Of a stretch of 64,000 bases of DNA, positions 1,593 through 5,268 are shown piece by piece. Numbering within the stretch: position 1 is the first letter of the stretch; every line of letters starts with the position of its first letter. Source of the stretch: Archangium violaceum (GTDB lineage Bacteria; Myxococcota; Myxococcia; Myxococcales; Myxococcaceae); assembly GCF_016887565.1 (NCBI RefSeq), contig NZ_CP069396.1, positions 11,390,001 through 11,454,000 of the forward strand. The letters are read 5' to 3'. The position numbers and the translations under genes are program-made. Below the pieces are notes generated by a model. The model was not told the origin of the DNA. It searched no databases and was given only the letters and a program-made list of their open reading frames with translations.

Positions 1593-2345
1593 ATGAGTCT
1601 GGTCAAAGAGCTGTACGAGCCGTATGTGCTGCCCGCGCGCGCCCGCATCTCGACGGATCCGGTGATGCGCAGGCTGGTCGATCCCGCCATCGAGCCGCTC
1701 GTCCTGGAGCGGTTCTTCATCCAGTTGAACTCCCTGGGCGTGTACATGACCGAGCCCGTGGAGGGGTGGATCCGCCGCGCCGGCCAGCGCTGCATCGCCC
1801 AGGGCCAGGACTCCATCGGCAGGTCCCTCGTCGCGCACGCGAAGCACGAGGCCGGCCACCACCAGATGATGATCGACGACGTGCGCCACCTGGTGCGGCG
1901 GTGGAACTCGCGGCGCGGGCAGACCCTGCACGTGGAGCGGCTGCTCGCCCAGCACCCCACGGACGCGATGCGCGCCTACCGGCAGCTCCACGAGCAGACC
2001 ATCATCGGGGACCTGCCCGCGGGGCAGATCGCCATCGAGTTCGAAATCGAGAACCTGTCCGTGGTGCTGGGGCCGCACCTGCTGTCCAACGTGGCGCGGG
2101 TGCTCGGCCGCGAGACGCTGGAGGGGCTCAGCTTCCTCAAGGAGCACGTGAAGCTCGACATCGGCCACACGGCGCTCAACGAGCGGATGCTGGAGGAGCT
2201 GCTGCAGCAGATGCCGGAGAACGCCCGGACGCTCGCGGAGCTCGGCGCCGAGGCGCTCGACATCTACCTGCGCTTCATCGGTGACTGCCTGCACTCGGCC
2301 GAGACGGCGCTGTGGACCCCGACCGAGGTGGTGGCGGTGGCCTAG
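1593..2345 (+). CDS. Heme-oxygenase-like diiron (iron-containing redox enzyme family) protein
   Basis: 250 residues, no signal peptide, so cytoplasmic. The all-helical sequence carries the spaced carboxylate/His pattern of heme-oxygenase-like diiron proteins: LVLERFF early, then HAKHEAGHHQMMIDD near residues 85-100, and EFEIENLS later. These would supply metal ligands. I chose the ATG at 1593 because AAGGAG lies 8 bases upstream; a longer frame from 1554 has no ribosome site. The family includes oxidative N-oxygenases and desaturating enzymes, but the substrate here is unknown. It directly follows the PilZ gene and converges with the TPR lipoprotein gene, overlapping it by four bases. Confidence 0.75.
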   Translation: MSLVKELYEPYVLPARARISTDPVMRRLVDPAIEPLVLERFFIQLNSLGVYMTEPVEGWIRRAGQRCIAQGQDSIGRSLVAHAKHEAGHHQMMIDDVRHLVRRWNSRRGQTLHVERLLAQHPTDAMRAYRQLHEQTIIGDLPAGQIAIEFEIENLSVVLGPHLLSNVARVLGRETLEGLSFLKEHVKLDIGHTALNERMLEELLQQMPENARTLAELGAEALDIYLRFIGDCLHSAETALWTPTEVVAVA

Positions 2346-4138
2346 CGGCCGAAGAGGGCCTCGGGCTTGTCGAGGCCGCGCGCCTTGGCCAGCGGCAGGA
2401 GGATGTCCTCGGGAGGCGCATCGGCGGTGAGCAGCAGGGCGCGCACCGCCGTCTCCACCACGTCCTCGGCGCTGGGACGCACCATGCCCCGGCGCGCGTC
2501 CTCCACCTTGCGCTGGCGGTAGACGTCGAAGCGCTCCTTCACCCGCGTGGCGATGGCCGTCATGGCCCTGTCGCCCGCCTCCACCCGGAGCTCCGCCTCG
2601 CTGCGCAGCTGCACCGGATCCGCCAGCACGCCCACCTTGTCGTAGGCCTTGTTGGCCGAGTCCTCGTGCATCGCCGCGTAGTCCTCGGTGCGCGGCGAGG
2701 CGGCGACCGCGTCCTTGGCCAGGTCCACCAGCCGCTCGGTGACGCTGGCGGTGATGGCGAGCCGGTGCAGCTCCACGTCATACGGGTACTCGCTGTAGAC
2801 GGGCTCGTCCACCGTGAGGGGCTCGCGGTAGTAGGCGTCCCGGCCGCGCTGCACCTCGCGCCGCTGCGCCTCGGCGGACTCCTGGGCGGCCGTCAGTCGG
2901 CGCTCCAGCTCCTGCGCCGCCGCGCCCCGCTGCGACAGCGAGCCCTCCTCGCCATCACACTGCGAGTTGCAGCGCGCGGGGTTGCACTCCTGGGGCACCT
3001 GCCCGTTCTGGCTCTGGGTGAAGGCCCGGGTGCACTCGGTCAGCGCGGTGGCGCACAGCTTGCGCTCGCGCTCGCGGCAGCGGAAGGCCACCTCGCGCGC
3101 CTGCACCAGCTCGTCCTGCTTGCGCAGGTAGTCGCGCAGCACGCCCGACAGCTTGCGCTCCACGTCCTCCAGCTTGCGCTCCTGCTCCAGCAGCGCCGTC
3201 TCCAGCTCCACCCGGCGCGGGTTGGGCACGGCCTTGTTCGTCACCAGGTAGCGCTGCGTACGCTGGGACTGCTCCACCGTCTTCTCCGGCCGCACCCGCT
3301 CCAGCGCCACGCCCAGGCGCACGCCCTCGTGGTCCTTCGGCGCCTCGGTGGTGATGACGCGGATGGGAACCTCCTGCGGCAGCAGCGCCGACAGCCGCCC
3401 GGGCGACAGCCGCTGCACCACGTCCGGCGCCTCGGCCTTGTCCTCCGCCGGCCCGGCCACCACCAGGAAGGCGATCTCATCCTGCAGCTTGCGGCGCACC
3501 GCCTCGGCGCGCTCGCGGGCGGGCGTGGCCCCCACCCGCTCCTGGTCCGCGCGCACGTACGCCAGCAGCGCGTTGCCGGGCTTGCCCTCCTCCTCCAGCC
3601 GCTGCGCCGTGGTGAACCACCGGCGCGCCCACGCCGTCTTCACCGCGTCCACCACCTTGCGCGCCTCCGCGTGCGTGGCATCCACCGCCAGCACCGCGTC
3701 GAGCTCGGCCCGCGCGTCCTGCAGCCGCTCCTCCTTCAGCGCCTTCTGGGCCACCTCCACCCGCGCGTCCAGCGTCTGGGTGAGGAGCGCGCGGGCCGGG
3801 TCGTTCTCCCCGTCCAGCTCGAGCGCGCGCACCAGCAACTGCGAGGCCCCGGCCAGGTCACCCTCGGAGTGCCTGGCCTGGGCGGCCTGGAACACCTCGG
3901 CGCTCCACTGCTTGCGCATGGCGCGCAGCTTCACGCGCACCTCCGAGTCGCCCGGCTCCACGGCCAGGGCGCGCTGGTAGGCGGCCTCCGCCTCCGCCCA
4001 CTTGTGCTCGGTGGTGAGCTGGTCGCCTTCCTTCACCGCGCGGGAGAAGGCCGAGCAGCCCGCGAAGGCGAGCAGGGCGAAGAGGGAGAGGGCAATCAGT
4101 CCCAGACGGCGGGACGGAGACGATGAGGGGCCGGGCAT
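2342..4138 (-). CDS. TPR-containing lipoprotein
   Basis: 598 residues from the ATG at 4138 (a GTG nine bases upstream is possible). The N-terminus has an Arg pair, a hydrophobic stretch and lipobox LAFAGC, so it is an exported lipoprotein. Residues ~30-200 form tetratricopeptide-like helical pairs (EHKWAEAEAAYQRALAVEPGD and similar). The middle has a coiled-coil stretch (ELETALLEQERKLEDVERKL) followed by a Cys-rich patch (CRERERKLC, ECNPARCNSQC) that could form disulfides. The C-terminal 150 residues are unclassified. TPRs mediate protein contacts, so a scaffold role at the cell envelope is plausible but inferred. No close family recognised. Confidence 0.8.
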   Translation of the reverse strand: MPGPSSSPSRRLGLIALSLFALLAFAGCSAFSRAVKEGDQLTTEHKWAEAEAAYQRALAVEPGDSEVRVKLRAMRKQWSAEVFQAAQARHSEGDLAGASQLLVRALELDGENDPARALLTQTLDARVEVAQKALKEERLQDARAELDAVLAVDATHAEARKVVDAVKTAWARRWFTTAQRLEEEGKPGNALLAYVRADQERVGATPARERAEAVRRKLQDEIAFLVVAGPAEDKAEAPDVVQRLSPGRLSALLPQEVPIRVITTEAPKDHEGVRLGVALERVRPEKTVEQSQRTQRYLVTNKAVPNPRRVELETALLEQERKLEDVERKLSGVLRDYLRKQDELVQAREVAFRCRERERKLCATALTECTRAFTQSQNGQVPQECNPARCNSQCDGEEGSLSQRGAAAQELERRLTAAQESAEAQRREVQRGRDAYYREPLTVDEPVYSEYPYDVELHRLAITASVTERLVDLAKDAVAASPRTEDYAAMHEDSANKAYDKVGVLADPVQLRSEAELRVEAGDRAMTAIATRVKERFDVYRQRKVEDARRGMVRPSAEDVVETAVRALLLTADAPPEDILLPLAKARGLDKPEALFGR

Positions 4139-4274
4139 CGAACGCACGGCCCCATCTTCGGGGAAAGCCGCGCCTGGATGAAGAGATGATTGAGTGTTCG
4201 ACCACCAGGCAAGCAGTCTCTGGAAACGGACGGGTCACGACGCTATGAAGAAGGTTCCAACCCCGAGGTGAGCC

Positions 4275-4883
4275 ATGTCCGTGCGCATCCGCCTGTACTC
4301 GGATTTCGTCTGACCGTTCTGCTTCATCGCGGAGCGCAGCAGCCTGGTCAGGCTGCAAGAGGAGTACGACGTCGAGGTGGAGTGGAAGGGTTTCGAGCTG
4401 AACCCGGAGACGCCCCGTGGGGGCATCTCCCTGGACCAGCTCTTTCCGGGCCGGGGAGAGGCGATGCGGGCCCACGCGGAGCAGTTCGGCCGGAGCTTCG
4501 GTGTGTCCCTGAAGGTCCCCGCGCGCATGTCCAACACGCGCCGGGTGCTCGCGGTGACGGAGTGGGCGAAGGACCAGGGCCGCTTCCAGGCCTTCCACCA
4601 GGCGGCCATGGAGGCCTACTGGCGGCGGGGTGAGGACCTCGAGAGCCCGGACGTGCTCGCCCGTCTGGCGGAGCAGGCGGGCCTGCCCGGCGAGGGAGCA
4701 CGCGGCGCCATGGACTCGCCCGAATACCAGGCCCGTCTGGACACCCTGCGCGACGAGGCCCGGCGCGACAGCGTGCGCGGCATCCCCACCTTCTTCATCG
4801 GGAAGACCCGCGTGGTGGGCTGCCAGCCGTACGAGGCTTTCGAGCAGGCCGTCCAACTCGCGGGGGCCCGCCGCAGGCAATGA
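4275..4883 (+). CDS. Selenocysteine-type DsbA/FrnE thiol oxidoreductase (in-frame TGA)
   Basis: 202 codons in one frame, interrupted only by TGA at 4311-4313. The product reads MSVRIRLYSDFV-U-PFCFIAE, so the TGA replaces the first Cys of the DsbA-family CxxC active site, giving U13-P-F-C16. The rest is a normal FrnE/DsbA fold: helical insert, then cis-Pro motif RGIPTFFIG (Pro171) and VVGCQPYEAF at the end. The start is firm: GAGGTGA sits just before ATG 4275. An internal GTG at 4377 would give a protein without an active site. The hairpin at 4339-4356 supports UGA recoding. The family is cytoplasmic, with no signal peptide; likely role is dithiol/disulfide exchange. The alternative is a nonsense mutation or base error (TGC to TGA); the intact downstream frame argues against old decay. 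Confidence 0.75.
4339..4356 (+). promoter_or_regulatory. Putative bacterial SECIS hairpin
   Basis: Perfect 7-bp stem GCAGCCT/AGGCTGC closing a GGTC loop. It begins 25 bases after the in-frame TGA, with 32 bases between TGA and loop. E. coli fdhF SECIS also presents a GGUC apical loop to SelB. Here the stem is longer and no bulged U is evident. Because it lies inside coding sequence it also encodes SSLVRLQ. Confidence 0.65.
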
Positions 4884-5025: not shown

Positions 5026-5268
5026 ATGGCCTGCTCGCCACCGAAGCCAAATCCCACCGAGCTCCGCCTGCCCATGTGGGCGGACCACCATCGCGTCGAG
5101 GACTACCGCAACGTCCACTGCCGCCACTACGCGATGTGCATCGACGCGGCGGTGCGTGAGGACTGGGAGGGCTTCTCCTGCCAGAAGTGCCCCCTGTTCC
5201 ACAATGACGCCGCGCCTCGCGCGGAGCAGTACGCGTACGATCAGCCGGCGGACAACGGTCGGCCGTAG
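5026..5268 (+). CDS. Cys-rich small conserved protein
   Basis: 80 residues, starting at ATG 5026 with GAGGGAG about 9 bases upstream. It contains HCRHYAMCIDAA and FSCQKCPLF, four Cys and two His that could bind a metal or form disulfides. No signal peptide is seen, so probably cytoplasmic. It is 142 bases downstream of the putative selenoprotein on the same strand. Whether the two work together is unknown. I recognise no named family; the pattern suggests a small zinc-ribbon-like protein. Confidence 0.65.
   Translation: MACSPPKPNPTELRLPMWADHHRVEDYRNVHCRHYAMCIDAAVREDWEGFSCQKCPLFHNDAAPRAEQYAYDQPADNGRP

Follow-up and report, generated by a model that had tools for sequence, protein, structure and literature searches.

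The DNA analysed here (the window) is a 64,000-nucleotide stretch of Archangium violaceum, contig NZ_CP069396.1, positions 11,390,001 to 11,454,000. A gene within it, at 4275-4883 on the forward strand, very probably encodes a selenoprotein of the DsbA/FrnE type, in which an in-frame UGA is read as selenocysteine (Sec) at residue 13. The best evidence is a bacterial Sec insertion sequence (bSECIS) hairpin behind the UGA, an element that an earlier sequence-only reading of this DNA had not named. The selenoprotein interpretation proposed in that reading is also supported by the presence of Sec machinery genes in the same genome and by other genomes that carry the same TGA.

An in-frame TGA at the DsbA active site

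The sequence-only reading had described a frame open but for one TGA behind a good start, and we found the same: a single internal TGA (4311-4313) besides the terminal TGA, and a Shine-Dalgarno-like GAGGTGA ahead of the ATG. The internal TGA coincides, as that reading also held, with the first Cys of the DsbA CxxC (DFV-U-P-F-C; U13, C16), and a Pfam profile search matched PF01323 (DSBA) to residues 5-194 (E 4.1e-36; 125 bits, gathering cut-off 25.6). Calling open reading frames (ORFs) with table 11 alone yields the 168-aa ORF from GTG 4377 to which ordinary gene finding had been expected to cut the product. Strand 1 of the predicted fold comprises residues 3-9 (no signal-peptide predictor was run), therefore no leader stands ahead of the domain; the protein is probably cytosolic. 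Coordinates of the features are collected in Table 1.

Table 1. Features of the selenoprotein gene in the window
Feature	Position	Strand	Remarks
Shine-Dalgarno-like GAGGTGA, 5' of ATG 4275	4265..4271	+	letters read; function inferred
Predicted DsbA/FrnE-like selenoprotein coding sequence	4275..4883	+	202 residues plus stop; Sec = residue 13
TGA codon, Sec13, UxxC position 1	4311..4313	+	frame and relatives' codons
TGC codon, Cys16, UxxC position 2	4320..4322	+	frame and relatives' codons
Bacterial SECIS hairpin, GCAGCCU-GGUC-AGGCUGC	4339..4356	+	loop 4346-4349; fold, bSECIS constraints, synonymous freeze, genome pattern
Pro171 codon (GIPTF), conserved cis-Pro position of thioredoxin folds	4785..4787	+	column invariant in 56 sequences; cis state inferred from family
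Cys183 codon (VVGCQPY), extra thiol	4821..4823	+	present in most close relatives; role inferred

Residue 13 is encoded by TGA or a Cys codon in all relatives read

Homologues were surveyed in 145 genomes of the order (E<=1e-20). A homologue was present in 99, of which 66 have one TGA inside a match and 33 do not. The residue 13 codon was read in 70 loci of the order, which cover most TGA genomes and a minority of the Cys-only ones; 55 loci, from 54 of the 66 genomes, have TGA and 15 have Cys. The TGA falls at residue 13 in 55/55 TGA-bearing loci, and it does so too in a locus of the same phylum outside the order (L180). Over all 149 tabulated loci the codon is TGA in 57, TGC in 53 and TGT in 39, so the prediction that relatives would show Cys or Sec at this residue holds throughout. 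One locus with Cys at residue 13 (L097, 5001-5567) has a further TGA within the aligned stretch. No DNA match to the gene was found in plasmid records, and phage records gave four matches of 26-28% identity.

The TGA might have arisen from TGC by a single-base change, either through misreading in sequencing or as a point mutation specific to this strain, in which case the gene would encode an ordinary Cys enzyme or be a fresh pseudogene. However, TGA stands at this codon in one genome outside the order as well as in 54 within it, and synonymous sites in the hairpin that follows are frozen. In addition, the ratio of amino-acid-changing to synonymous differences (pN/pS) against a close relative (L027) is 0.00 in the 12 codons upstream of the TGA, without a single amino-acid change, and 0.31 in the 189 codons downstream. 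A misread TGC is very unlikely because separately sequenced genomes share the TGA, including two same-genus relatives that are 90% and 70% identical. Judged from these comparisons, sequencing error, pseudogene and truncation are very unlikely as a group, and to error or mutation we assign a negligible probability.

A hairpin frozen at synonymous sites

The hairpin at 4339-4356 has a 7-bp stem and a GGUC loop, with 32 nt between UGA and loop, and conforms to published bSECIS constraints. The fold energy is -12.6 kcal/mol for 4332-4362 and -11.1 kcal/mol for the bare hairpin. The combined pattern of UGA and hairpin has a single match in the 13.2-Mb genome. A hairpin passing the -7.5 threshold occurs at 10.5% of the 572 UGA sites in the window (both strands), and the SECIS is accepted because comparison across relatives, not folding alone, settles the question.

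The comparison of synonymous sites covered 25 Sec genes, the gene in the window and others of its group. L048 and L065 are fragments; a duplicate contig (L096) was excluded, as was L100, which has its hairpin at another position. Codons 23-26 (AGC CTG GTC AGG) are identical in 25/25, where the identity expected from codon usage is 31-47%, and codon 22 is AGC in 22 genes and GGC in 3. Outside the hairpin AGG accounts for 21 of 553 Arg codons (3.8%) in these genes. Among codons with >150 comparable pairs, V12, directly before the UGA (0.92 vs 0.47), and T46 (0.91 vs 0.48) also exceed expectation, and no second run of such codons was found. Codons 24-26 are retained in L180, the locus from beyond the order, where the hairpin pairs with wobbles, and GTC at codon 25 occurs in none of the ten closest Cys relatives. 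A Cys form in a genome with selA (L039, 1501-2109) still carries the 5' arm AGC AGC CTG, likely a SECIS remnant such as a 2006 survey describes in the passages found (PMC1794560).

If the TGA were instead a true stop, the functional product would be the one that mechanical ORF calling gives, 168 aa from the internal GTG 4377 and devoid of the CxxC. Such a product is scarcely credible: conservation extends over the UPFCF motif and the residues ahead of it, synonymous sites are frozen in the hairpin that separates TGA from GTG, and Cys relatives (L029-L032, L039) are open through the TGA point.

Several observations weigh against the selenoprotein reading. Folding by itself does not set the hairpin apart, as 29 of 200 shuffles of 4332-4362 fold equally well and 3.7% of the 572 UGA sites have a hairpin that fits the model and is no less stable. 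With spacings down to 12 nt admitted, 11 of the 26 group members have a more stable hairpin nearer the UGA; that hairpin is not the conserved, frozen one. The 25 Sec rows are related and some almost identical. The upstream pN/pS of 0.00 covers only 12 codons, and the downstream value is 0.55-0.66 against four more distant relatives. Finally, some machinery models also score above cut-off in a part of the 14 control genomes (tRNA-Sec in 5, selB in 2, selD in 2).

The genome contains the selenocysteine machinery

The sequence-only reading supposed that the host makes Sec and pointed to selA, selB, selC and selD as the genes to search for. SelA (L017, 575 bits), SelB (L001, 328 bits), SelD (L018, 379.1 bits) and tRNA-Sec (L009, 73.2 bits) were all found in the genome above curated cut-offs, identified by profile score only. 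Among the control genomes selA exceeds its cut-off in 1/14; the tRNA-Sec model is the least specific, since it passes in 5/14.

Across the order, selA (E<=1e-50) is present in 128/145 genomes, comprising 66/66 with the TGA form, 30/33 with Cys only and 32/46 without a homologue match, and the TGA form occurs in 0/17 genomes without selA. The association of selA with TGA gives a Fisher p of 2.6e-5 against all others and 0.035 against Cys-only genomes, values computed ignoring relatedness. Possession of selA does not imply the Sec form, because many genomes keep selA with the Cys form.

The selD gene (L018; 9518168-9519094 of the genome) also contains a TGA in frame, a single one close to its start, with a foldable hairpin behind it, so that SelD is apparently itself a selenoprotein. 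Two tRNA-Sec genes lie ~22 kb apart (L010 1501-1593 and L009 1501-1595; genome positions 5182915-5183007 and 5204985-5205079). They are identical over 92 alignment columns and differ in the first ~ten bases; the second copy has an imperfect acceptor stem and scores 59.5 bits. Of ten ORFs scanned between them, four match insertion sequence transposase-type domains (ISL3; rve with Mu-C twice; IstB) and none was a tyrosine recombinase. The pair seems to stem from a duplication at a site of insertion.

A second, SECIS-like hairpin in UPWC homologues

Homologues that are ~30% identical and have the motif UPWC also carry the TGA (L056-L064, L066-L072, L074-L085, L094, L095). Their hairpin is a different one, with the loop 20-21 nt from the UGA in 30/30, although in L057 it reaches only -4.9 kcal/mol in a simple count. 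Covariation was scored in 29 of these homologues plus a Chloroflexi locus (L100), 20 distinct rows in all; L075, which has its own hairpin at 21-nt spacing, was excluded. A six-pair helix is paired in 95.8% of cells and has a covariation score of 0.496, versus at most 0.130 for slid versions. In 17 cells both sides are changed (shuffled mean 4.0; 0/500 as high), while weaker measures gave 5 both-side-changed pairs (24/500 as high) and 8 further pair types (133/500). These shuffles are not probabilities, because the rows are related. Three genomes of the same genus (G043, G044, G046) have the UPWC form and, among the matches listed, none to the window protein at E<=1e-38.

Changes between Sec and Cys among relatives

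A tree was built from 88 sequences, 54 Sec and 34 Cys, leaving out duplicates and fragments (L096, L065, L154, L173, L174, L048) and keeping only ten loci from L107 onward as an outgroup sample. The Sec/Cys label needs 10 changes on this tree, at least 7 of them forced by well-supported branches. Four Cys loci (L029-L032) adjoin two Sec loci of the same genus (L033-L034) with a support of 94/92, which is below the tool's star. Eight loci, including L029-L031, L033 and L034, have an ORF in common that lies ~640-960 bases past the Sec/Cys codon, which suggests that Sec and Cys were exchanged in place among these relatives. A Sec locus (L038) and a Cys locus (L039) of one genus form another pair, well supported.

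Two Chloroflexi loci attach to the window's group with a support of 98/67: L100, a Sec form with a 21-nt hairpin, and L098, a Cys form. According to the tool's warning, the pairing of these two with each other is possibly a long-branch effect. L100 (5001-5594) comes from a Chloroflexi metagenome-assembled genome that holds the Sec form plus selA; no selA was found in the genome of L098.

Within a single fold family the SECIS is found at two positions (32 and 20-21 nt), which points to separate, repeated gains or to a relocation. A fuller history can be offered tentatively, at somewhat less than even chances: Sec may have been gained at least twice, each time with its own SECIS (the frozen 32-nt type in the window's Myxococcota group, the 20-21-nt type in other Myxococcota and the Chloroflexi relative), followed by several in-place swaps with Cys and one apparent fossil arm (L039). 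If true, the near-invariant 32-nt element, in codons that could otherwise vary freely, would mean that the SelB of this phylum reads more of the upper-hairpin sequence than pairing plus the loop G.

Proposed mechanism and the extra thiol Cys183

In the mechanism we propose, SelB carrying Sec-tRNA-Sec would bind the hairpin, such that UGA 4311-4313 is decoded as Sec and not as stop. The Sec13 selenolate would then attack substrate disulfides, with Cys16 resolving the mixed selenosulfide; re-reduction of the Sec13-Cys16 pair would fall to a cellular thiol system. Under oxidative or thiol stress the enzyme may serve chiefly to reduce or isomerise disulfides, as proposed for FrnE of Deinococcus radiodurans. 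A redox role of the protein, in thiol-disulfide exchange by Sec13 and Cys16, is likely. The protein might contain Sec and yet be a glutathione-linked transferase or isomerase (kappa-GST or HCCA-isomerase-like), not a thiol-disulfide oxidoreductase; we consider this improbable.

Cys183 could serve as an additional resolving thiol, a role that we regard as possible and rather doubtful. Its placement follows the strand order in the structure model and what we take to be the position of Ala93 in thioredoxin. Among relatives scoring >400 in pairwise alignment (L096, L048 and L065, a duplicate contig and fragments, excluded), it is present in 20/24 Sec relatives, with Ala in the other 4, and in 8/10 Cys relatives. 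This distribution speaks against a tie to Sec, and Cys183 as a Sec-specific partner was rejected, the thiol being found in Cys relatives as well as in Sec relatives.

Relation to known selenoproteins

We take COG2761 to be the FrnE group, a subfamily that also bears the number cd03024. In the passages found, nine DsbA-like UxxC selenoprotein sequences are placed in COG2761 in a 2005 Sargasso Sea set (PMC1088965), and a 2006 survey names a selenoprotein of DsbA-like type in the myxobacterium Anaeromyxobacter dehalogenans (PMC1794560). Passages from further papers give DsbA-like proteins as 41 and 45 in one table (PMC5029168) and DsbA 1 (PF01323, UxxC) as 63 in another (PMC2398784), a DsbA-like selenoprotein of Desulfovibrio desulfuricans (PMC1914089) and a DsbA-like form 1 with PF01323 and UxxC (PMC13188914). 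Because publications on DsbA-like selenoproteins with UxxC go back to 2005-2006, the window gene joins a known selenoprotein family, and the catalogue of such families is unchanged by it. The A. dehalogenans protein is probably its direct relative. As far as these passages go, form 1 shares PF01323, UxxC and a downstream bacterial SECIS with the window protein, whereas the window member and its 32-nt SECIS are absent from them, a comparison made without sequence alignment. Literature searches found no paper that combines selenocysteine, selenoprotein and myxobacteria and, as far as the retrieved records state their subject, none for FrnE and selenoprotein that is evidently on a bacterial FrnE selenoprotein. 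None of the terms looked for occurs in the deep-Sep paper (PMC12013277).

The best structural and sequence match to the window protein is FrnE of D. radiodurans (DR_0659), which has the first Cys where the window protein has Sec. The window protein is shorter (202 residues vs 260 in the PDB chain). It differs further, and to the detriment of the proposed reading, in having no C-terminal CX4C tail (no Cys follows C183); in the passages found, this tail occurs in many, not all, FrnE proteins. Cys183 is Ala in D. radiodurans FrnE and in most FrnE-type relatives listed.

The Rcas_1661 family thioredoxin-like (seleno)lipoprotein NF041057 is, like the window protein, a thioredoxin-fold UxxC selenoprotein, and in the passages found is the model listed for a DsbG-like selenoprotein (PMC13188914). 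It matches the window protein only partially (43.3 bits, residues 96-194; cut-off 190), and its lipoprotein signal is not in the window protein, which starts at strand 1.

The order thus offers a natural Sec/Cys series of one probably cytosolic enzyme, in some cases among members of a single genus whose neighbouring ORFs are shared. This series is useful for testing the benefit of Sec in thiol-disulfide chemistry and for following the gain, movement and loss of SECIS elements. Such genes may be mis-annotated, as N-truncated ORF calls lack the catalytic site.

Neighbouring genes

Upstream and divergent (2342-4147, reverse strand) lies a 601-aa ORF whose N-terminus is lipoprotein-like and whose only TPR matches are sub-threshold. 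Downstream, a small Cys-containing protein of 80 aa is encoded at 5026-5268 (forward strand); no Pfam match was found for it (5026-5265 scanned), and an ORF in this place is common to the eight related loci.
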